Source of the DNA: a candidate division SR1 bacterium Aalborg_AAW-1 | GTDB taxonomy: Bacteria > Patescibacteriota > Gracilibacteria > Absconditabacterales > Absconditicoccaceae | Direction: 5' to 3' | NCBI GenBank assembly: GCA_001007975.1 | Contig: CP011268.1 | Location: 310,001 to 374,000 of the forward strand | Length of the DNA stretch: 64,000 nt | Shown here: positions 4,908 to 56,507 of the stretch, piece after piece | Layout: each line of letters opens with the position of its first letter | Position numbering within the stretch: position 1 is the stretch's first letter | Made by a program: the position numbers and the translations under genes | Notes under the pieces: generated by a model | Databases searched by the model: none | What the model saw: only the letters and a program-made list of their open reading frames with translations | What the model was told of the DNA's origin: nothing

Positions 4908-5486
4908 TTAATGAGGAACACTATCCATCAAGTCTGTCAATTCTTCTATACTTTGAGATTTTTGAATATTTTCTTTAACCTCATAATATGGATGTTTCAT
5001 ACCTTCATCTTCAATTTCCCTCATTATATCTTTTTTCATAGTAGCAAAATCAATAAGTTCATCAGAAATTAGTTCTACACCCTCAAAAATTAAATTTCTA
5101 ATTTCATCAGGAACAATACTAAATTCTTTAAGTTTTTTTCTCACTAAGATATATTTCTTACCAGATTTATCAAGAATAGATCATTGTTGCAATCATGCAC
5201 CCATAGGAGAAGCCAGCACACTACCATAAAGATAATCTTTTTTATACAGATTGAGAGATCTGACTGGGATTTTATCATTTTGTCCTACAATAGGAAAGAT
5301 AACCTTATCTCGTCACAATACTTGTATCAACTCATCTTCTGAATAATATTGAGCTATCTTACGTTTATATAACCTAAACATAAAAAGATTATATTGCTTC
5401 ACCAACATCAATAAAATAATTAATGTAACTACACAAACAATTAAAAGATTTTTTTCAAGAAACAATCAAATATCATATAAATTCAT
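4908..5486 (-). CDS. Membrane-anchored hypothetical protein, 192 aa
   Basis: Not recognised. One N-terminal transmembrane helix (about residues 8-30, KNLLIVCVVTLIILLMLV) is followed by basic residues (KQYNLFMFRLYKRK), so most of the protein should be cytoplasmic. The middle part contains a small beta-rich region (VIFPIVGQNDKIPVRSLNLY) with Gly-rich LASPMGAGLQQGS, and the C-terminus is an acidic helix. UGA codons encode several glycines. It lies 17 nt downstream of the UPF0173 hydrolase gene and is probably in one operon with it and the Nudix gene. Confidence 0.6.
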
Positions 5487-5503
5487 AACATCAATATATT
5501 TAT

Positions 5504-6175
5504 CTATAAAACCACATATTGCCCAGCTCTCAACACTTTCGGAACTGCATACTGAGCAAGCATCACCTGTCTGGCAAATTCGATATCATCAGCTTTGAGT
5601 GTAGAATTAGTATTATAGTGAATTGGTACTACTGTTTTAGGTTTGATATATCAACAAGCCTTTACTGCATCTTCTACTCCCATCGTATAAGTCCCACCGA
5701 TCGGTAACAGAGCCAGATCAATATCTTGTATCTCACTCATTTCATCAAACAATTGCGTATCACCAGCATGATAAATACGGATTCATAAAAAATCAATTAT
5801 CAGACCCGATGAATGTCCTGTAGTACTAATATCATGAAGAGATTTCGTAAATTGTACTGATCAATCCTCAAAAGTAAAAAGAGAATCTAAAGATTGTGAA
5901 ATTATATTTTGTCCTATGATTGCATGAGATTGTACTATCTCACAAATATCTGTTATGGCAACAAGAGTACATCAAGTACTTTTGACAATAGTCATGATAT
6001 CATCCAGAGCATCATCACGGACATGCGTCAGTAAGATATGGGTAATAGATTTATGTATAATATCGTCCAACGTGATATCACATCTTGGGTTATGAGAAAC
6101 AAAGGGATCAATAAGAATACTAGAATTTTCTCTTTCTATTTCAATGAAACTATGTCCATGATAGATAACCTGCAT
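5504..6175 (-). CDS. UPF0173-type metal-dependent hydrolase (metallo-beta-lactamase fold)
   Basis: A 223-residue member of the YtkL/UPF0173 branch of metallo-beta-lactamase-fold hydrolases. Family marks are visible in order: [11 protein letters not shown] at the N-terminus, [22 protein letters not shown] (the HxHxDH motif is degenerate here, HVRDD), then [31 protein letters not shown] and VVPIHYN. The AGDT and PIGG..TM motifs are diagnostic. Glycines in [16 protein letters not shown] and PIGG use UGA in part. Substrate is unknown for the family. It ends in TAG and lies between the Nudix gene and a membrane protein gene, probably co-transcribed. Confidence 0.8.
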
Positions 6176-43074: not shown

Positions 43075-43102
43075 AAAAAAGAGTCTTATCTGACTCTTTT
43101 TT
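43075..43102. terminator. Bidirectional terminator between yidC and the GH3-like gene
   Basis: AAAAAAGAGTC and GACTCTTTTTT form an 11-bp stem around TTATCT; the symmetric A- and T-runs suit both strands. The stop codon of the minus-strand gene (43086) lies in its loop. Confidence 0.85.
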
Positions 43103-44672
43103 CGTAGTGTAAAAGTGGTTTCACGATCGACTCATAATTTCAGTCAGAGAGATACGGAATTTTGGACTGCTCATGTCATAGTCCTAATACCATCATCGTA
43201 GATCTAATAAATCAATCAGCAACAATGACGACATGACAACCTGTAATCCTTGTATTGCGTTCTCTAAAAAATTTTCGTTGTTCATTTTTTTTCCCTAACA
43301 AGACATCAAAATCACGAGTGAGTTGGTCAATTTGTTGGTCTGAAGTGATAGCTCATTCTATAATAATATGGAATTGTGCAGATGTCTTTGCTTCATTGAC
43401 TTCCATACCAGCAACAAATGCTTGTGCATTCAATTGATATCATTGTTCATAAAGTTCACTGATAACTTGCTGTAGGACATCTGATTCTATATGTTCATTC
43501 ATAATATTAGATGACATACTATATCTTCCCACAACCTCATATTCAAGAGGGTCTCATGCTTTCCAAGATGAAAACCTTACCTTATCCTTAATATCATATA
43601 ATCGTGGGATACGATCATTGGCAAACAACATAAAATATTCTTGATCTGACTGGACTTCATGAAGAAGGTGAGATGCCATAATCATGCTAGAAGTTGAACG
43701 TTGTCAGGATTTTCGTTGTTGATATTCCTCTTTCCCAACAAAGAGAAAAAAATTTGATCTATAGAGAGGAACCATAGCATGGAAAGAAAGATCTTCAAAA
43801 TTTCTCATCTGTGCACCAAAAAAACCCTCTGACGCATTGTGATTATTCGATCCATACAACTTCTGTCGCAGTCATAAAGATTCTAATCTTTTTTTATATT
43901 GAAGCTTGTAATCCTGTGGCGTTCATCATCCAATAGAGATATATTCAAGTCTGGATAGAATCTGTCTTGCAATCTGTGCATCACGCTCAATAAGCTCATC
44001 AATCACTCATAATGGTCGTGCAGGAACTCCATGAAATGATCTAATGTTTGGTTTTTTATGACAAAGTTCTTGTATGATTTTTTCTTTTTTCTCTTGGTTT
44101 GTTAGTGTTGTTAAAACAGAGGAAGAAGGAAGGAAAATTGATTCTACAAATTTATTGCCATATCTCATAGCACCAGAGATATATCCTATTCTTTTAGACG
44201 TATCAAAAGGAGCAGAAAGAACAAAAGAATAAGGAAGAAAAACTTTACTTTGAGGATTTTCCTTGAGGTAATAAGCCAATGTTCTTTGAATCGCTTGTCT
44301 TTCGTTATGGAAAGAGCTTCGTTGTGCAGGTATCAATTTCCCTCACTGTTTTGCATCAGAAGTACCTGAAGTCTTAATATGTAAGTCTGGTTTAGAAGCT
44401 GTAATTCAGCTACCCTGTTCTACTAATGACAAAATATCTGCACCATAATCAACAATACGATATGAAGATGAAGCGAAATATTCTTTGAGTTGATGAGAAT
44501 TATAGTTTTTTATCTTTTCTTGTTTTATATGAAGATTTCTATATAATGGTGAAGATGCGTAATGAATCAATAATCTCTGCATAACATTCTTCTGTTTAAG
44601 AAAAATATCTTCTTTTTCTAATGGAAGCTGTTGAGAATACAAATAAGAAAAAATTCAATTAATAAGTTTCAT
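43086..44672 (-). CDS. GH3-like acyl-adenylate-forming enzyme
   Basis: A 528-residue member of the GH3/luciferase-fold superfamily that activates acids as acyl-AMP. The ATP loop reads IKTSGTSDAKQGGKLIP; then KRIGYISGAMRYGNKF, ISIGGTPQDYKLQYKKRLE, EGFFGAQ, FANDRIPRLYDIKDKVRFSSW, and the GRYSM motif of the hinge. Many glycines are UGA. Plant GH3 proteins conjugate amino acids to hormones; the bacterial substrate is unknown. Length is near family norm. It overlaps the terminator hairpin after yidC and is divergent from rsmI. Confidence 0.68.
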
Positions 44673-44712: not shown

Positions 44713-45402
44713 ATGCTGTACGTTATTCCAACTCCTATTGGGAATAGTGATGATATCACACTAAGAGCCTTAAAGCTTTTTCAGGAAGTAGATCTCATTA
44801 TTACAGAAAATACAGGTACGACAAAGAAACTTTTAAATATCCATACTATTAATTATAGCAATAAAAAGTTCATAAAGTTCACTTCTCATGACCATCATAG
44901 CATTAATTCTATACTTTCTTTGTTTGAAAATCAAGATGGAATACTCGTCAGTGAGGCAGGAACTCCATGACTTTCTGATCCTGGAAAAATTCTTATCATC
45001 AAAGCTCAAGAAATACATATACCTATTACAATACTACCATGAGCAACCGCTCTCATACCAGCAGTAATTGGTGCCCAATTTCCTACAACACACCGATCAT
45101 TTTATGGTTTTTTACCACATAAAAAAGGAAGAGAAAAGCTTCTGACCCAGATGATGCATGCCTCTCATGGAAGTTTCTTTTACGAATCAGTGCATAGGAT
45201 TGAAAAACTTCTCGAACAACTTGAAAAGCTAAAATTTATGGGTAAAATAAGTATTAGTAGAGAACTATCCAAGAAGTTTGAACAAATCATAACAAGTGAT
45301 CTTAGTAATATACAAGAATTTATAAAAAATAATACAATGCCGCTCAAATGAGAATTTGTCATATGACTTTATCCATCGACAGCACATGAAACTGAAGAAT
45401 AA
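44713..45402 (+). CDS. rsmI: 16S rRNA (cytidine-1402-2'-O)-methyltransferase
   Basis: RsmI methylates C1402 at the 30S decoding centre. The 229 residues show MLYVIPTPIGNSDDITLRALK, IITENTGTTKKLL (most have AEDTR), ILVSEAGTPGLSDPGK and ILPGATALIPAV, the SAM-binding motifs of the tetrapyrrole-methylase fold; glycines in PGLSDPG and LPGATA are partly UGA. The C-terminal helix part is shorter than usual. The last 17 nt overlap the start of the sugar-transferase gene. Confidence 0.88.
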
Positions 45403-46789
45403 AAAATTTATTACAATAATACGCTTATTGAGACCTCTTTTGCATTTTTTGGTTGTACTTTTTATCTATCGAATAGCTTATATTCTGCGTAGCAATACGA
45501 ATATCTTTTGGTCTATTGATATATGAACTCCTTGGATAGCAACACAAGAACTTATAAGATATGCTATCATAAGTGCAAGTATTTTTATTATTACAGGAAT
45601 TGTTCATAAACGATATGACCTTATCAGTTTAGAAACAGGAAAAACGAAAACTTTTCTTACTGTATGGTGGCAATGGACAATTATTGTAACGTGTTTAGCA
45701 TATTTTTGACAAGGATTCATATTTGAACATTGAATATCTAGACTCATTGTTATTATTACTGCATTATTGAGTCTTATCGTTATACCTTTTATAGAAATAA
45801 TATGGGATGGTATATATGTTCGTTGGATAAAAAGATTTTCACATACCATTCATATTTTACTTCAAGACAAACCACAACAAGCCATCATCACACAACTCAC
45901 TCTTCCAACTTACTATAACGTCAGGACATCATTTTTTTACGAAACTGATATTGATGCCATTCATGAAGATATCATTATTCTTGTAGGATCGTATACTAAA
46001 GATGAATTACAAGAACTTATTGATCTGATCAGACTAAAAAATAAGCAAGTCTATCACATAGGAGACAATCATTTTTTAGAAGATGTGATCTATACTCATA
46101 CGAAATTTGCTGGCATTATGGCCTTAAGATATACGTCTTCACAAATTGAATGATGGGCAGCTATTACGAAAAGAATTGTAGATATTACATGATCACTTAT
46201 AGGTATCATCATCACAAGTCCCATTCTTCTCATTACTGCGCTTGCTATCAAACTTGATAGTAAATGACCTATTTTTTATAGACAAGAAAGAGTAGGAAAA
46301 AATGGAGAACATTTTCTTTTTACTAAGTTCCGTAGTATGTATACTCATCTCAGTGTGGGTTCGTGATACGGTGGACAAGAAGCTGAACAACTCTATAAAG
46401 ATCTCGTCAACTCTCATGCCAACATTCGCAAAGGAGAATTACCAAAAATCAAGAATGATCCAAGAGTAACAAAAGTAGGAAAATTTATTAGAGCAACATC
46501 TATAGATGAATTACCCAATCTTTTTGCTGTACTCAAAGGCGATATGTCTCTTATTGGACCTAGACCGCATCTTCCAAATGAAATAGAAAACTATAAACCA
46601 CGACAACGTAGAGTCTTGAGTATAAAACCTGGAATTACTGGTTACGCACAAATCCATGGAAGAGATACTCTCACCTTTGACCAAGAAGCAACCAAAGAAT
46701 TAGAATACATCCAAAACTGGTCTCTTTGGTTAGATATATATATCATCTTTGCTACCTTCGGAGTATTATTTGGAGGAAGAGGAAAATAA
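45386..46789 (+). CDS. Undecaprenyl-phosphate sugar phosphotransferase (WbaP/WcaJ type)
   Basis: This enzyme loads the first sugar phosphate onto the lipid carrier for surface polysaccharide. The 467-residue protein has four N-terminal membrane helices, a CoA-binding-like middle domain and the C-terminal bacterial sugar-transferase domain: GSLIGIIITSPILLITALAI, KFRSMYT, IRATSIDELPNLFAVLKGDMSLIGPRP and KPGITGYAQI. The GPRP and DELPNL motifs are diagnostic. I chose ATG 45386, which overlaps rsmI, as the only ATG before the first helix. GalU and the phosphohexomutase could feed it; the glycosyltransferase at 48789 could extend the product. Confidence 0.88.
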
Positions 46790-47041: not shown

Positions 47042-47115
47042 AGCGGATGACGCGACTCGAACGCGCAACCAACTGCTTGGAAGGCAGTGACTCTAGCCAA
47101 TTGAGTTACATCCGC
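47042..47115 (-). tRNA. tRNA-Gly(TCC)
   Basis: Acceptor GCGGATG/CATCCGC, anticodon loop CTTCCAA between ACTGC and GCAGT. It reads GGA/GGG. This is the only glycine tRNA seen; a tRNA-Gly with anticodon TCA for UGA is not in the window. CCA not encoded. Last gene of the array. Confidence 0.93.
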
Positions 47116-47174
47116 AAATTTTTACATTTCTACTATACTCTTTTTTACTCCTTTTTCAAGGGGAAATATAAGTT

Positions 47175-47248
47175 TGGGCATACCTTGACTTGAACAAGGG
47201 ACCAATCGGTTATGAGCCGACTGCTCTAACCAACTGAGCTATATGCCC
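47175..47248 (-). tRNA. tRNA-Met or tRNA-Ile2 (anticodon CAT)
   Basis: Acceptor GGGCATA/TATGCCC with a paired first base, so not the initiator. Loop CTCATAA between GTCGG and CCGAT. The variable loop and T-arm (TTGTTCAAGTCAAG) look more like tRNA-Ile2, the TilS substrate, but elongator Met is possible. Confidence 0.85.
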
Positions 47249-47281
47249 TGACAAGGATATGGAGTAAGCAGGTAATAATAA

Positions 47282-47358
47282 TGGTGGGTGATATAGGACT
47301 CGAACCTATGACCCCCTGCTTGTAAGGCAGGTGCTCTAGCCAACTGAGCTAATCACCC
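47282..47358 (-). tRNA. tRNA-Val(TAC)
   Basis: Acceptor GGGTGAT/ATCACCC, anticodon loop CTTACAA between CCTGC and GCAGG, T-arm ATAGGTTCGAGTCCTAT, CCA encoded. Confidence 0.95.
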
Positions 47359-47365
47359 ATCAATA

Positions 47366-47440
47366 TGGCGGTCCCACGGGGAATCGAACCCCGACTAGAG
47401 GATTGAAAGTCCCCTGTTCTAACCACTAAACTATGAGACC
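47366..47440 (-). tRNA. tRNA-Glu(TTC)
   Basis: Acceptor GGTCTCA/TGGGACC, anticodon loop CTTTCAA, T-arm CGGGGTTCGATTCCCCG, discriminator G and encoded CCA. Confidence 0.95.
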
Positions 47441-47469
47441 ATATTAGGCTATTAAACAGAATATAATAA

Positions 47470-47511
47470 TGGCGGAGGTATCTGGAGGAACGAGAGTACT
47501 GAATGGGATTC
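47470..47511 (-). pseudogene. Decayed tRNA-Asp 3' end with a 22-nt insert
   Basis: The plus-strand sequence TGGCGGA then CTGAATGGGATTC copies the 3' end of tRNA-Asp (47558: TGGCGGACTGAATGGGACTC), together with the flank ATATAATAA before it. A 22-nt block (47477-47498, containing GGAGGAACGAGA) interrupts the copy. No intact cloverleaf remains. Confidence 0.65.
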
Positions 47512-47557
47512 AGACATAAAAAGCTTCCTATAATTTATCTCATACCAAATATAATAA

Positions 47558-47634
47558 TGGCGGACTGAATGGGACTCGAACCCACGACCTCCCGCGTGAC
47601 AGGCGGGCGTTCTAACCAACTGAACTACCAGTCC
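47558..47634 (-). tRNA. tRNA-Asp(GTC)
   Basis: Acceptor GGACTGG/TCAGTCC, anticodon loop CTGTCAC between CCCGC and GCGGG, T-arm GTGGGTTCGAGTCCCAT, CCA encoded. Confidence 0.95.
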
Positions 47635-47639
47635 AAATT

Positions 47640-47711
47640 AGCCAACTATCGGATTTGAACCGATGACCCACCGCTTACAAGGCGGTAGCTCTACCACTGA
47701 GCTAAGTTGGC
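47640..47711 (-). tRNA. tRNA-Thr(TGT)
   Basis: Acceptor GCCAACT/AGTTGGC, D-arm GCTCAGTGGTAGAGC, anticodon loop CTTGTAA between ACCGC and GCGGT. CCA not encoded. Confidence 0.95.
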
Positions 47712-47722
47712 AAAGTCAAGCT

Positions 47723-47986
47723 TTATGCTTGTGCTTTGTTAAAAGTTTTTGCAACAAGTGCTTTTCTTCTTGCTGCAGTATTTTTATGTAGAATACCTTT
47801 TTTCAAAGCTTTATCAATTCTTGCATATACTGTATTAACATCTTCCTGTGAAAGAGCTTCTTTTTTAGCAACTTTCTTATTAAAAATATTCAAAGAGATT
47901 TTGAGATCATCTTTAAATTTTTTATTAACAAGTCTTTTTTTATTAGACTGACGCATAGCTTTTTTAGCTGAAGATGTTATTGGCAT
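47723..47986 (-). CDS. rpsT: 30S ribosomal protein S20
   Basis: S20 binds the 5' domain of 16S rRNA. The 87 basic residues begin MPITSSAKKAMRQSNKKRL and continue with KVAKKEALSQEDVNTVYARIDKAL and NTAARRKALV, the typical three-helix S20. No UGA codon is used. The ATG at 47986 is chosen over an in-frame TTG two codons upstream. It is embedded in the tRNA array between tRNA-Asn and tRNA-Thr and on the same strand, so it is likely co-transcribed with them from the promoter at 48132. Confidence 0.93.
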   Translation of the reverse strand: MPITSSAKKAMRQSNKKRLVNKKFKDDLKISLNIFNKKVAKKEALSQEDVNTVYARIDKALKKGILHKNTAARRKALVAKTFNKAQA

Positions 47987-48029
47987 GTACAAGAAGAAAA
48001 CTAGAGATTAAATAAGAATAATACTAACA

Positions 48030-48102
48030 CTCCGAGGATCGGACTCGAACCGATGACCCAGTGGTTAACAGCCACTTGCTCTACCGACTGAGCTACCTCG
48101 GA
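48030..48102 (-). tRNA. tRNA-Asn(GTT)
   Basis: Acceptor TCCGAGG/CCTCGGA, anticodon loop CTGTTAA between AGTGG and CCACT, T-arm ATCGGTTCGAGTCCGAT. CCA not encoded. Confidence 0.95.
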
Positions 48103-48131
48103 ACAATAAGGTCGGCATAAACGTAAACATA

Positions 48132-48159
48132 TGTATAAGAATTTACTACTGTATTTCAA
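48132..48159 (-). promoter_or_regulatory. Promoter inside the tRNA array (tRNA-Asn, rpsT and beyond)
   Basis: Minus strand CTCTTGAAAT (TTGAAA 48154-48159), 16-nt spacer, TATACA (48132-48137), 30 nt before tRNA-Asn. Confidence 0.6.
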
Positions 48160-48174
48160 GAGATTTATTACATT

Positions 48175-48247
48175 CTCGGAAAGAAGGACTCGAACCTTCA
48201 ACCTTCTGATTCAGAGTCAGATGCTCTACCAATTAAGCTATTTCCGA
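48175..48247 (-). tRNA. tRNA-Gln(CTG)
   Basis: Acceptor TCGGAAA/TTTCCGA, anticodon loop CTCTGAA between TCTGA and TCAGA, T-arm GAAGGTTCGAGTCCTTC. CCA not encoded. Confidence 0.93.
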
Positions 48248-48312
48248 ATCTCATAGAATGGGTCAAAGTTCATCTCATATATTACACAAGAGTATAATAA
48301 TGTATAAGTCTT

Positions 48313-48375
48313 TGTGGAATTACTGGAGACAGGATATATCTCGAGGAACGAGAATACTTGAACCCACACACAGCA
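48313..48375 (-). pseudogene. Decayed tRNA-Leu 3' half with a 22-nt insert
   Basis: Plus-strand TGGAATTACTGGAGACAGGA, then CTTGAACCC...CAGCACTT, copies the 3' part and flank of tRNA-Leu (48394 onward: TGGAATTACCGGGGACAGGA, then CTTGAACC). Between the two halves lies a 22-nt block (48335-48356, TATCTCGAGGAACGAGAATA within it) that forms a hairpin. Confidence 0.65.
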
Positions 48376-48402
48376 CTTACCTTTTCAAATGTTTTATGGA
48401 AT

Positions 48403-48484
48403 TACCGGGGACAGGACTTGAACCTGCACACCGTAAAGCACTTGGTTCTAAGCCAAGCATGTCTACCAATTCCATCACCCCGGC
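48403..48484 (-). tRNA. tRNA-Leu(TAG)
   Basis: 82 nt with acceptor GCCGGGG/CCCCGGT, anticodon loop CTTAGAA between CTTGG and CCAAG, and the long class II variable arm TGCTTTACGGTGTG. CCA not encoded. Confidence 0.95.
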
Positions 48485-48512
48485 ACACAAACAAGATAAC
48501 AATATAATTTAC

Positions 48513-48584
48513 TTGCGGGGGCAGGAATTGAACCTGCTATCTTCGGGTTATGAGCCCGACGAGATACCGTTTCTCCACCCCGCA
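48513..48584 (-). tRNA. Initiator tRNA-fMet(CAT)
   Basis: Anticodon stem GTCGGG/CCCGA with the three initiator G-C pairs around CTCATAA, T-arm GCAGGTTCAATTCCTGC. The first pair is weak (U1-A72 instead of the bacterial C1xA72 mismatch). Substrate of Fmt. Confidence 0.92.
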
Positions 48585-48605
48585 ATACATAATTACTAAT
48601 ATCAA

Positions 48606-48679
48606 TGGCTGGGAAACCAGGATTCGAACCTGGACGGACGGCTTCAAAGGCCGCTATCCTACCATTAGATGATTTCCCA
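48606..48679 (-). tRNA. tRNA-Gln(TTG)
   Basis: Acceptor TGGGAAA/TTTCCCA, anticodon loop CTTTGAA between GCGGC and GCCGT, T-arm CCAGGTTCGAATCCTGG, discriminator G and encoded CCA. First gene of the array. Confidence 0.94.
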
Positions 48680-48788: not shown

Positions 48789-49940
48789 ATGATAAACACC
48801 ATGAAAATTCAATTCATCTATGTGTGAAGATTAGATAAAGAAAAGGGCATAGAACATCTTATATATGCAACTGAAAAGCTCATTAAGAACAATATGGTAT
48901 TTGCTCTTCATATCTATGGCAAAGGTCAATATGATGAAGAAGTGCAACAACTTGCAAGCAAATATCCCCATCATGTTCATTATTATGGATGGATGAAAAA
49001 AAATGATATCATACCTTACTGGAAGACTATGGATTTCTTTATTATGCCATCACAATTTTTGGAAACATTTGGACTTACAGCATGTGAATCACTCCTCTGT
49101 TGAGTGCCCGTCATAGGAAATAAAAAATGATGACTCATTCCTTTTATAGATAACACACTTAATCTACAATCTGCTCCAGGAAGTACTGATGGTGAAAAAC
49201 TTGCTCATATCATAAAATCTCTTATTACTCATACCACAACAAAAGATCATTTCTCTTCACTTATTAGACAAACCCAAACATCATACTCTAAAACAACACG
49301 ATATAGTCAGATACAAGCTCTTTTACCCGAACGAGAACCAGTACTCTATATTAGTGATTATATCAACTATAATGGTGGTGGTATCGAAACTCATATTCAT
49401 GATAGCATAACAATTCTTTGACAACAAGATCACGACACCAAACTCTACTGACATCAAGCACCTACATGAAAATTTGCTCTTCTCAAAAAGCTAGCCATTA
49501 TGGCAATAAGTATTTTCAATATTCCTGACACCATCAAGATAAAAAAGAAGATAAAAAAATGAAAGACCTGACTGATATGGCGACATAGTATCTCAAGAGT
49601 AATAGGTTGGCTTCCTGTAGCATGTTCTGATCACAATAACCAAATAATATCGCATCATGAGCTTGGACTTTTTCATCCCTATCCAAGCAAAACTCATGAG
49701 ATTGATCAAATTCCTAAAGCATGGTCATTATCGAGTTTTATACAAGCATGAAATTCAAAAAATCCTATTACAATAGCATCGATTATAGGAAAATTTTGTC
49801 TTGTACGACTTATCCATAAACAGTTGAAAAAGAAAGTCAAAACCCATATAGTTCCATCAGAACGGATGATTGATATGGTAAAACAACGACATCCATACGC
49901 AAATGTAGTATGTATACCTCATTTTGTAGATATAGAGTAA
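48789..49940 (+). CDS. GT-B (GT4-like) glycosyltransferase with its halves in swapped order
   Basis: A 383-residue protein in one frame. Residues about 5-170 are a GT4 C-terminal, donor-binding domain: IQFIYVGRLDKEKGIEHLI, FALHIYGKG, HYYGWMKKNDIIPYW, MPSQFLETFGLTACESLLCG with the donor-binding ExxE-type loop, VIGNKKGG. Residues about 183-383 are a GT4 N-terminal, acceptor domain: LYISDYINYNGGGIETHIHD, ending HIVPSERMIDMV....VVCIPHFVDIE, which in normal enzymes directly precedes YVGRL. The order is thus C-N instead of N-C, cut at the interdomain linker. Several UGA glycines. Start 48789 or 48801. Probably acts on lipid-linked sugars with the WecA-like next gene. Confidence 0.78.
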
Positions 49941-49965
49941 ACTTTAGTTGTTGTTATTATGAAAC

Positions 49966-51063
49966 ATGAATTTATGACGGGAAAACATCCTTTGAATTAT
50001 AGGAAGTCTCATTATTATACCATGGTTTTGACTTTGGTTTTTTGATAGATTAGGAATTATTGAACACAAAAAACGAGCTCAATACTACAAAAGAAAACCT
50101 GTGCCTAATGCACAATGAATTCGACTACGAGCTACTCTTATTATAATAATCTGAATATTAGGTCGAAACTATATAGATAATCAATATATGCTTATTTATT
50201 TATGAGCAATCACCCTGCTCTCTATAATTGCTACTATTGATCTCTTTAAACCTATTCCTTCATGGGTAAGATTACTCTTACAGATAAGCCTTTTTACAAT
50301 CATTGTAGTATATGGTGGAGTATCTATTGAAACCATTCGTGTCATTGGATGAGATGTTTCAATAACACAATGGATTGCAATCATAGGAAGCATTATTTGG
50401 TTCGGTGTATGTACCAATGCAATTAATTGGTTTGATGGAATACAAGGACAAGCAAGTTGAGTAACAGCAATTGGTTCATTCTCTCTTTGGGCAGTGGTAA
50501 CATTTATTGTCTTGCCAAGTTATACGGAGCTAACTCCTTATATTAGGGATCAAATTGAAATTACAAGAATAATAAGTTTCTCCTTATGATTAGTATCCAT
50601 CGTATATACTATGATAGAATACAAACCACTTTGACTCATTAGAGATATTGGAACAACAATTTTCTGATTTTCATTAGCATATCTTGCACTTTTAGGAGGA
50701 GCAAAAATCGGAACGCTCATTGTAACACTTTCTCTTGTACTTCTTGATATGATATGGGTCATTATCAATAGGCTAATCATTATGAAAAAGAATCCAATGA
50801 AATGAGATTATACCCACCTCCATCATAGACTAATTGCCAACGGACGAAATAGATCAGAAGTCAGATGGTTTGTATGGATACGATCAGCAATTCTAAGCGT
50901 ACTCATGCTTCTTCAGTGAACGAATAGTATTAATAAACGAATTATTCTTATCATGATGGCAATTCTTTTCTTTGGAATCAATATCTATATTTTCTGGATC
51001 AAAAAAGCTCCTACTGAAATGAAAGTAGAGTTTAATACTGAAGATGTCAATAAACTTGAATAA
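49966..51063 (+). CDS. WecA/MraY-type polyprenyl-phosphate sugar-1-phosphate transferase
   Basis: An integral membrane enzyme of 365 residues with about ten helices that moves an N-acetylhexosamine-1-phosphate from a UDP-sugar to the lipid carrier. Marks: FDRLGIIEHKKRAQ (family R.GI.D.P..R), ITLLSIIATIDLF (D-x motif), CTNAINWFDGIQGQASG (most have NA.N..DG.DGLA.G) and the basic loop THLHHRLI. It starts 25 nt after the glycosyltransferase stop. WecA and MraY cannot be told apart safely; the HxHHR-type HLHHRLI favours the WecA/TagO side. The convergent tsaB ends 8 nt away. Confidence 0.82.
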
Positions 51064-51820: not shown

Positions 51821-54457
51821 ATGAATTTCCTTAGGATATATCATAAGACACGTTATTGGATATTACCACTCTTTATGATTGGGATACTACTATTTTTTTC
51901 TGATAATGTTTTCGCACAAGGAGCTGGGACGATTGCTACTGAAGGTAGCAAAACAGACTCTATCGCTGATGCCCTTTTCAATGGGATGTGATCATTACTC
52001 AACATTCTCTATATGATAACGCTACCAGTGCTTATTATAGCTGGCAAAGCCATGGACAATTCAATGGTATATGGAGAATTTATGAACCTTGATAAACCAC
52101 TCTATATGCTCTGGAACATGAGCAGAACACTGGCAAATTTTGCAATAGGATGAGTATTACTATGGAAAATTTTCAATTATATTTTTTCTAAAGAGACAGG
52201 AACACCAGCTATTTTGAAAGACATTATCATTAGGTGAACGCTCATTGTCTTATGAATTAATTTTTCATGGTTTGGGCTATGAGTACTCATAGACCTATCT
52301 ACTGTTGCGACCTATACACTTGGTGCTATGCCTTTATGAGCGATTAAAGAAATCAATAAAGATAAGGATATGCCTATTCTCTCTATTATGTCATTTTTTG
52401 ATTATCAATCGACAAATTCAAAAGCACAAGCAGGTATTCAGAAAAATATACCTCCATATATTTATTATAAACGATGAAACATCAATATCCCACCTTGTGC
52501 GAAAAATTATCATGGATTTATCATCTGACCAGAATATTATCCCACTCTTCCTAACAAAACCGATGTAAGTTTTACAGGTCGAAAAAAAGATGACACATCA
52601 AAACAATACTGTGCCCTTACACCACAGACACTAGCTGACATAACAAATCTAGAAAAACGAAAAACAGAAAATCTTTCTGCTATTGCACCAATCGAAAACA
52701 ATAAAGAAAGAAACTGAAAAATGAAAGACGTGATAAATTCACTCATGAACAGTACCTCTTGTAACACGAACATTACATTAACGGGAACAGCAGGAGGAAC
52801 TCACATCATAGCTGCTAATAATATACAACAATTATGACTTAGTTGAACACTTCAATTTGGAGATGGACAAAAAACATCCTACACCTTCTGTAGTACTGCA
52901 GCCAACTCAAACGATAAACTCACCATCACTCACAATGCATACAATAACAATGATCGAACGAAAGTATTTTTGAAAGGTGGTGAAGAACCATATAGCACTG
53001 AAGAATCACAAACACTCAACAATCTTGTCAATCAATCACAAGGAATGGTAGGTCCATTTGTTACACTCTATATGACATTACTCGATTTTTCAAATCTATC
53101 AACGATTAATCAAGACAATCTCTCTCTTCAAAATTCTATTGGTGGTTTTACAGAATTCTTGCTCAAATCAGCAATTAGTGTTGCTGTGTTTATACCACTT
53201 GTTGCACTTGCTGCTACACTTATTATTAGAGTAGTACTTCTCCGAGCTATTATTGCATTTGTTCCTCTAGGCATCGTATTCTGGTGACTAGGAAAAGATA
53301 TTCCATGAGGATGAGGGTGAAGCATAAAACTTCCTGGGGTCTTATGATGAGCAAGTATTGATTCTAAAAATGCAGGAAGTAGTATTATCTGACTTATTTT
53401 TGCGCCTGTTCTCCCTGTATTTGCAATCAGTATCAGTCTTATTATCTTGCAGACACTGCAATTAGAAATGTGAAAGGCAATTTCAACAGAAAATAAAGGA
53501 CGACAATTTTTCTGAATTCAATCTGTGGTATCTACAACAGACCCAAACATCAGTTGTATAGATTTTTGGGGGATGCAAGAAACATGTTATAAGACAGATC
53601 CTAATACCGATAGTGGATCATGATTTGCTAATCTCATCCCATGGTTGTTTGTAAATATTTTTGGTATCTGACTAATGTGGATGATGGTCAAGGTATCATT
53701 GTCAAGTAGTTCTATCACGAAAGGAATCGGTGAAAATATTATCAATCTCTGAACAAAAGCACTATGAGCCATACCTATTCCAGGACTAACAATAGGATGA
53801 ACAAAAATCAGCACATCAACAGCACTGCAAGCTCCTTCTATGCTTACAAGAATAGCAAATCAATGAATAGACGAAAAATTAGCAAAAGAAAACAAAGCTA
53901 TCTATGACAAATTTGATAATAATGATAGTAATGCTAACACCAATTGATCACCTTCAGTTATTATCACCAAACCTAAAGAAACAAAAGAAGCATTTATCAA
54001 ACAAGCAGCCCAAAAAAACAATAACTATATACAAGCATTCTCTACATCACTCAAAGAATCATGAGATATAAAAGCTGCAGAAAATCTATCAAAACTCAGC
54101 ATAGCAGATCAATCGCAGGAAACATTAAAGTTTCTTGAAAGTTTTGAGAAAGAACAACAAGACAAAATAAATAAGAACAATCTTAACATACAAAAAGACA
54201 ATCTCATCAAACAAATCCTAGAACCACAACTGAAAGCAATATATGACGAAAAAGATGAAAATACCAAAAAAAACCTACTGGATAATCTGAAAACTCAAAT
54301 AGAAAATACTGACAATAAACTCTGATGAGCTGATAAAGCAAAAAGTCTCTTTAGCACAAATCCAACATATAGTGATATACTGAACAAGCTCTTTAGCACA
54401 AATCGTAACTCAACCACAGGACAACAAAATACCCCACAACAAAATCCAACTTCATAA
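51821..54457 (+). CDS. VirB6/TrbL-like membrane protein with signal peptide, 878 aa
   Basis: An N-terminal signal-like helix (LFMIGILLFFSDNVFAQG) is followed by membrane helices and the stretch MVYGEFMNLDKPLYMLWNMSR, which recurs almost unchanged in the next gene. A soluble part with Cys residues (PPYIYYKRGNINIPPCAKNY) occupies about residues 200-410, then come a VirB6-like block of helices (SAISVAVFIPLVALAATLIIRV) and a charged helical C-terminal tail rich in Lys/Asn/Gln. The topology resembles T4SS inner-membrane channel proteins. UGA glycines are very frequent. No hit can be named with certainty; the TraG-like ATPase at 1143 fits as a partner. Confidence 0.6.
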
Positions 54458-54500: not shown

Positions 54501-56507
54501 ATGCGCTCTATTACAAAATCCATATTTCCATATAAATACATCATAGCCATCGTGCTTATGGTAATTTTATGGACATCGAATGTATGGGCACAATCTCCAG
54601 AAACACTTTGTCCAACTGACACTACCGAACAAGTTACGAGTTTATTAAATATTATACTTACTTTTCTTTCATGGATATGGATAGTCCTTGCTACGCTTGC
54701 AGGTAAATTAATGACCAATGGTTTCGTCTATGGAGAGTTTATGAATCTTGATAAAGTGCTCTATTATCTCTGGAATATGAGTAGAACATTTGCAAACTTT
54801 CTGATTGTTTGATTATTATTGTATACTATCATTAGCAAAGCACTAAAAGGAACATTGAATGGAGGAGAAATCGTTGAATTTATTGTAAAAAAACTGATAC
54901 TTTGAGTCATACTCATCAATGCAAGCTGGTTTATCATAGGAGCGATGGTTGATATCAGTACTATTGTTACATCTGCTGCTGCTTCATTACCAAGCTCGTA
55001 TGTCGCATCGAATTGACAGAATATGAGGGATACTATTACCCAATCATTACAAATCCATGGACCAAGCAAAAAAATAACATATAATCTCTGAACCAGTATC
55101 TGTAGTTCTCTCAAAGCTGCAGAAACATCACCCTCATCAAATAGCAATACGTCACAAAATACAGATATCAATACCCTCTTAGATATGGTATTGCCAAATG
55201 AAACAAGTGTTTCCTGACCGCTGTTATATTTATGAGTGAGTGTTTTTCAGATTCAAAACTTCCTGAATAACACAAACAATCCTAAAGCCATCATTGACAA
55301 CCTTTTTGTGGTAGGAGTAAGATTGGCCATTACTCTCATGTTTACCTTTGCTCTTATTCTTCTCATCATAGTCAATATTTTTAGACTCGTAACAATATGG
55401 TTTGCTGTAGCATTTGGTCCAATCCTTATTTTACTTACCTTAAACTCACAAGAGAAACTTTTATGATCACTATGAGAGAAATTCTCAATTGAAAGCATCA
55501 CAAAAGCAATTTTTGCACCAGTAATAGCAGTGGCTATGTTGAGTCTTTGACTGATTGTCATTGTTATTATGCAAAATTTTTTGCAACTCAATACGAATAT
55601 AGAATGGTGAGATGCCTATGTCTCATCAAGCACACAATGATCTCGTATCGGTGTGACTAATATTTTTGATACGATGATTGCAGGTGATATTCTCTGAGAA
55701 GAAAATCAAACAGGAGCAATGATCAAAAATACTTTTAGTAATATACTCCTTATTATTTTTACTCTCTTTATTCTTTATGGCATAACGCAGCTTCTTACAA
55801 AATTTCTTGCAAAATGATTTGGGGCAGAAACTGTGAAAAGTATTGCTGATTTATGAGGTAAGGCATTATGATCTATCCCTATGATTCCAACATCTCAATG
55901 AGCTATTAGTATAGGATGAGCAATGAAATGATTAGAGAGAATGACAGATGATTTCAAAGGGAAACTCTCTCTATCTTCAAGAGATAGTGATGAAGCACTA
56001 GAAAACAAATTTAGAGAGATGATGGGAATGGAGGTAAAAATACCATATAATGATCTTAAGCCTCTTAAACAACTTACTAAAGACCTTTCTAAAAAAGAAA
56101 ACATAACAACATCAACCTATAATAACATCAACAAAGAAATAAGTAAAATCATTGGGAAAGGGAAATATACGACCAAATCCATCCCAATCTCTAAAATGCA
56201 ACAAATTCCAGATACGATACAAGCATTATTTAAAAGTATGGCAGAAAATAATATTACACCTAGAGACCTCTTATGATCAGAATACAGTAATAACAAATTA
56301 GAATGACGAACAGATAATTGATGAATACAAGAATTTATTGAAAAAAATTATAAAAATAATAAAAAGTTCTTTAATAAAATATATAGTGATATAGGAGGAG
56401 ATGCAGATTATATCAGTACCAGAAATGGTAAATGATTCTGGGATGAAAAGGTAAAATGGGCGGTCTCATCATCACCTCAAACTACGCCTTCATCACCTAA
56501 TCCATAA
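54501..56507 (+). CDS. VirB6/TrbL-like membrane protein, paralogue, 668 aa
   Basis: Signal peptide (IIAIVLMVILWTSNVWAQ), helix with LLNIILTFLSWIWIVLATLAGKLM, then FVYGEFMNLDKVLYYLWNMSR, shared with the upstream gene. Further helix pairs (LAITLMFTFALILLIIVNIF, AVAFGPILILLTLNS) resemble the conserved core of VirB6/TrbL, with a soluble insert between, and a charged C-terminal cytoplasmic tail. UGA codons abound. It lies 43 nt after its paralogue and is probably co-transcribed; together they look like two subunits of a secretion or pilus channel. Confidence 0.6.

Follow-up and report, generated by a model that had tools for sequence, protein, structure and literature searches.

Reversed domain order in a predicted GT4-type glycosyltransferase family of Absconditabacteria and Gracilibacteria

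We analyzed a 64,000-nucleotide stretch (the window) of the genome of the candidate division SR1 bacterium Aalborg_AAW-1 and found a gene that very probably encodes a working GT4-type GT-B glycosyltransferase with its two Rossmann domains in reversed order. In the encoded chain, the donor domain (with R14, K19, and E92) comes first and the acceptor domain (with a GG loop and H290) second. GT-B is one of the largest enzyme classes, and annotation nearly always assumes that the acceptor domain precedes the donor domain. The reversed reading explains a gene that standard annotation would label half a glycosyltransferase. As the order is reversed in 63 proteins, we refer to the product as a permuted GT4-type enzyme and not as an ordinary GT4 member. 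The gene and its parts are listed here.

48789..49940, + strand: whole permuted glycosyltransferase (383 aa under code 25; coordinates include the stop; probable start 48801)
48801..49319, + strand: donor (nucleotide-sugar) Rossmann domain, usually the C-terminal half of GT4, here first (residues ~5-177; from PF00534, VIA, and the residue census)
R14, K19, E92, E100 (EX7E), and G114-G115, + strand: donor-domain residues (from the residue census)
49320..49334, + strand: new junction from the donor-domain end to the first acceptor-domain strand (residues ~178-182; AlphaFold2 secondary structure H168-176, E185-191)
49335..49937, + strand: acceptor Rossmann domain, usually the N-terminal half of GT4, here second (residues 183-383; from PF13439, HMM matches 183-380, and the G019 alignment)
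within 49335..49937, + strand: acceptor-domain features, namely the G197-G198 loop, H290, and the terminal ...PHF that normally precedes the interdomain linker

Read with table 11, 48789-49940 is without a long frame. With table 25, in which TGA encodes Gly, 48789..49940 (+) is one open frame of 383 amino acids with 10 in-frame TGA codons, the expected state for an SR1/Gracilibacteria genome. The protein begins with MINTMKIQFIYVGRLDKEKG and finishes with VVCIPHFVDIE, in agreement with how an earlier note, made from this DNA sequence alone, had read its two ends. The first residues of the relatives lie 5-8 residues ahead of the GR motif. Because the relatives also begin there, M5 (ATG, 48801) is probably the true start. 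The stop-to-stop frame has only 402 residues, and therefore there is no space for an extra domain on either side.

Pfam profiles placed the GT4 donor domain PF00534 at residues 3-154 (profile 12-164 of 172, E 1.7e-24, over the cut-off) and the acceptor domain PF13439 at residues 340-383 (profile 124-169 of 170, E 4.6e-4), so that the end of the N-domain model coincides with the end of the protein. This is the donor-then-acceptor order that the note had proposed. The PF13439 score of the window's copy is 23.5 bits, below the curated cut-off of 28.5 bits; across the family, the second half matches PF13439 in 31/33 members, with a best E of 9.4e-17. The Pfam domains detected in the permuted protein were PF00534, PF13692, and PF13439, and Pfam found no GT28 or Alg14 domain in it.

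AlphaFold2 modeling with 35 family members predicted one confident two-domain chain (pLDDT 92.2, pTM 0.87). The donor half matched solved GT4 donor domains with Z of about 20, and in VIA it matched the C domain of glycogen synthase with Z 20.3 over 158 residues. Foldseek and VIA keep chain order, and the match list of the permuted model thus comprises the donor domain only. Because such sequential aligners cannot match the acceptor half simultaneously, a canonical-order relative (G019) was modeled instead. Its model aligned full-length with GT4 enzymes in VIA (MshA, Z 29.2, rmsd 2.9, 328 residues; PimA, Z 27.1). In the sequence alignment, the G019 linker between ...LPNFID and INFVFFGRL falls at the position of both termini of the permuted proteins. 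The cut therefore sits in the interdomain linker, where the note had placed it.

In ordinary GT-B enzymes, the last helix returns to the acceptor domain. In the permuted chain, the break falls within the usual linker between the domains, and what was formerly the C-terminal end runs through a short junction into the first acceptor-domain strand. Both domains are predicted still to close over one cleft, with the fold intact, because the last GT-B helix runs back to the acceptor domain, where the junction joins.

A homologue search of 59 relatives was followed by a search of all 49 genomes of the window's family (Absconditabacteria/SR1), from which the frames were extracted. Both searches returned full-length colinear matches. 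The permuted protein occurs in 41/49 Absconditabacteria/SR1 genomes. The exceptions are one genome with a canonical-order fusion (G019), two with separate halves (G004 and G009), one with the acceptor half only (G015, 76% complete), and four of the 49 (G016, G025, G028, and G068) in which the search found no permuted protein, fusion, or half. An acceptor-half profile was also run over 353 genomes of the class. In a second family (f19, Gracilibacteria), 23/27 genomes were positive, all in reversed order: 21 carry an intact permuted protein, one a copy with an in-frame TAG (G076), and one a frameshifted copy (G099). A third family contributed one permuted copy (G237). In total, 63 intact permuted homologues share the same order, which is near-universal in two bacterial families (41/49 and 21/27).

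Outside these families, the acceptor profile matched in 22 genomes of a phylum sample, and every frame there with both domains had the ordinary acceptor-donor order. Canonical-order proteins from f14 and other families (G137, G140, G446, and others) were considered as close relatives and ruled out, as the tree groups them with canonical GT4 proteins outside the clade. A phage search gave donor-domain matches only, in unannotated contigs. Searching the frames of the extended loci with both domain models, we found no second glycosyltransferase half within about 4 kb of the gene. The acceptor-half query gave a single match in the window's own genome. The reversed order read by the note thus holds across many genomes, and in the loci examined no further half flanks the gene. 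The picture has to be amended in one respect: split and canonical-order proteins also belong to the family, and its domain order is therefore not constant.

The canonical-order fusion lies in an Absconditabacteria genome (G019, L041:428-1663, -). The split genes of G004 adjoin each other, ten bases apart, and follow the permuted gene order, with the donor half (L038:4443-5330, 295 aa) before the acceptor half (5341-5970, 209 aa); the donor half holds an insertion of >100 residues. The halves of G009 are on different contigs (donor L040:5841-6389, acceptor L039:503-1105), each with its own unrelated neighbours, and the donor half lies well within a 51-kb contig. For the G009 acceptor half, no ATG lies ahead of the conserved region, which leaves its start codon uncertain. 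The split halves of both genomes are still conserved.

Phylogenetic analyses of the acceptor halves (N), the donor halves (C), and both jointly placed the permuted proteins, the split proteins, and G019 in one clade against canonical GT4 proteins (96, 100, 100/99). The lone acceptor half of G015 falls in this clade as well. The agreement of the three trees indicates that both halves share one history and that G019 belongs to the family. The same clade in the N and C trees, together with the canonical-order G019, would be compatible with one canonical source for both halves within the limited outgroup sampled.

An alternative is that the halves were fused from two different glycosyltransferases, one giving the donor half and the other the acceptor half, and do not stem from one permuted enzyme. 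The outgroup was picked by acceptor-half similarity, which leaves some room for another source of the donor half, and this half resembles many GT4 subfamilies. However, the canonical-order G019, from the same bacterial family, has the same N-domain (30-44% identity to most N halves vs 18-23% to other canonical GT4s) and a related C-domain, and the separate N and C trees each give one clade that includes it. We thus consider a two-source fusion unlikely, and a reversed GT-B architecture would remain even in that case.

The permuted enzyme probably originated when separated half genes fused, or else through duplication followed by trimming. The two G009 halves cluster with permuted Absconditabacteria (88/90), a placement that points to a permuted gene having been split secondarily. 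The base of the tree and the positions of G004, G015, and G019 were not resolved, and a single clade of all permuted proteins was not rejected (p-AU 0.223). For these reasons we claim no direction, either for permutation or reversion or for G019 as a relic or a reversal. It is conceivable, though we hold it as a tentative scenario, that the family as a whole began with the reversed order and that G019 is a re-reversal, passing from a permuted gene through separated halves to a normal-order fusion. If true, the family would be a natural series in which GT-B domain order can be changed both ways through functional two-chain intermediates. The donor half of G019 has lost the conserved GG (QN) and a Pro and ends early; judging from its sequence, G019 may be changing function.

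We profiled active-site residues over the 63 permuted proteins. In the donor half, R14 is conserved in 61/63, K19 in 62/63, and E92, the first Glu of EX7E, in 63/63. In the acceptor half, the GG loop is kept in 62-63/63 (G198 in 63/63) and H290 in 63/63. R14, K19, E92, and H290 are the catalytic positions, as is well established for GT4 enzymes including PimA and MshA. Their near-invariance speaks in favour of an active enzyme. The second Glu of EX7E (E100) is kept in 28/63 proteins, the window's copy included, and replaced in 35/63 by Asn (19), Thr (8), Asp, Ile, or Ser; the Asn and Thr replacements are found in many Absconditabacteria. By lineage, many Absconditabacteria have Asn, Thr, or Asp at this position, whereas nearly all Gracilibacteria proteins have Glu. 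This variation could reflect altered nucleotide or sugar binding.

The frequent replacement of the second Glu, together with the low identity between genera (about 20-38% to the window's copy), would fit a degenerate, non-catalytic paralogue retained for binding. Such a paralogue is nevertheless very improbable, given that R14, K19, E92, and H290 hardly vary across the 63 proteins, nor do the glycine loops, and that almost all of these small, reduced genomes carry the gene. We give virtually no likelihood to an assembly artefact, or to a joining of two half genes, confined to a single genome: homologues with this order in 63 genomes already refute it, the window's genome is a complete single contig of 1.04 Mb, and the predicted fold is a confident single chain.

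The permuted enzymes have the two domains of CAZy GT4 members (MshA, PimA, BshA, and WaaG), along with the basic pair, the first EX7E Glu, and the His of the catalytic region; the canonical-order G019 aligns with these members from end to end. They differ from them in the reversed domain order, the new termini in the interdomain linker, and the lack of conservation of the second EX7E Glu. The note had also held that few GT-B permutations are known. This stood insofar as freely licensed papers on permuted or reverse-order GT-B enzymes yielded Alg13-Alg14 only, and no GT4 or bacterial case; it needs amending in that a precedent exists, as Alg13-Alg14 is fused in reverse order in Entamoeba histolytica and Dictyostelium discoideum (PMC8993221). 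There, the gene was split and then re-fused several times, with inversion in Amoebozoa (PMC8993221).

As in the reverse Alg13-Alg14, the donor (C-type) domain precedes the acceptor (N-type) domain in a GT-B enzyme, and as in Alg13-Alg14 generally, the relatives include split, normal-order fused, and reverse-order fused forms (PMC8993221). Unlike Alg13-Alg14, which belongs to the GT1/GT28-type MurG/Alg14-13 lineage of eukaryotes, the present family is bacterial and GT4-type (PF00534 and PF13439), and permutation is its commonest state, in contrast to a rare case there. The present family is a separate bacterial GT4-type case of reversed GT-B order that behaves like Alg13-Alg14.

The halves may be separate genes (adjacent in G004, unlinked in G009), as in the split two-chain GT-B enzymes EpsE/EpsF and Alg13/Alg14, although the lineage is different and here splitting is rare and reverse-order fusion is the rule. 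Circular permutation is known in other carbohydrate enzymes, such as GH70 relative to GH13 (PMC11046441) and MalS (PMC10223318). In those, as here, the chain is reordered and the catalytic machinery kept. GH70 and MalS are glycoside hydrolases, unlike the present GT-B enzymes, and the GH70 cut lies inside the barrel, whereas whole Rossmann domains are swapped here.

Since either order and separate halves are tolerated in the family, its two domains seem capable of working as modules. A reverse order that is the norm beside split and normal-order relatives means that the interdomain connection is not fixed. We see in this family natural intermediates for studying the origin of circular permutations in two-domain enzymes.

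Two genes for polyprenyl-linked sugar chemistry lie close to the permuted glycosyltransferase in the window.

45356..46789, + strand: polyprenyl glycosylphosphotransferase (PF02397; TIGR03025 over the cut-off), upstream of the glycosyltransferase with a tRNA cluster between
49948..51063, + strand: WecA/MraY-type polyprenyl-phosphate sugar-1-phosphate transferase (PF00953), 7 bases downstream of the glycosyltransferase

A PF00953 gene directly downstream was found in two genomes, the window's (G000) and G010. In 13/16 Gracilibacteria loci, a protein of an O-antigen-ligase-like cluster (three of its proteins were tested for the PF04932 assignment) lies close to the glycosyltransferase and usually adjoins it. 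PF04932 matches across Absconditabacteria were set aside as evidence, as many were weak and several, near mraY-like PF00953 genes, may be SEDS proteins. Most Absconditabacteria have two PF00953 proteins, presumably MraY and a WecA-like enzyme. Neighbourhoods vary by genus, and in many Absconditabacteria trmD or rsmI stands beside the gene, without sugar genes.

We interpret the PF00953, PF02397, and O-antigen-ligase-like neighbours as pointing to sugar transfer to a polyprenyl-linked surface glycan as the likeliest role. The permuted enzyme would take a sugar from a nucleotide-sugar and pass it to an acceptor, which is most likely a surface glycan linked to polyprenyl pyrophosphate. It thus probably acts in lipid-linked surface-glycan assembly, with donor and acceptor guessed from the neighbours.

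Other features of the window were observed around the gene. The tRNA cluster directly upstream comprises eleven tRNAs (47042-48679, -), on the strand opposite to the glycosyltransferase. A 528-aa protein at 43086-44672 (-) has no Pfam match at E 0.001, and its TSGTSDAKQGG motif recalls adenylate-forming enzymes. Two adjoining large membrane proteins at 51821-54457 and 54501-56507 (+) belong to one sequence family, resembling one another as well as a pair in G032.
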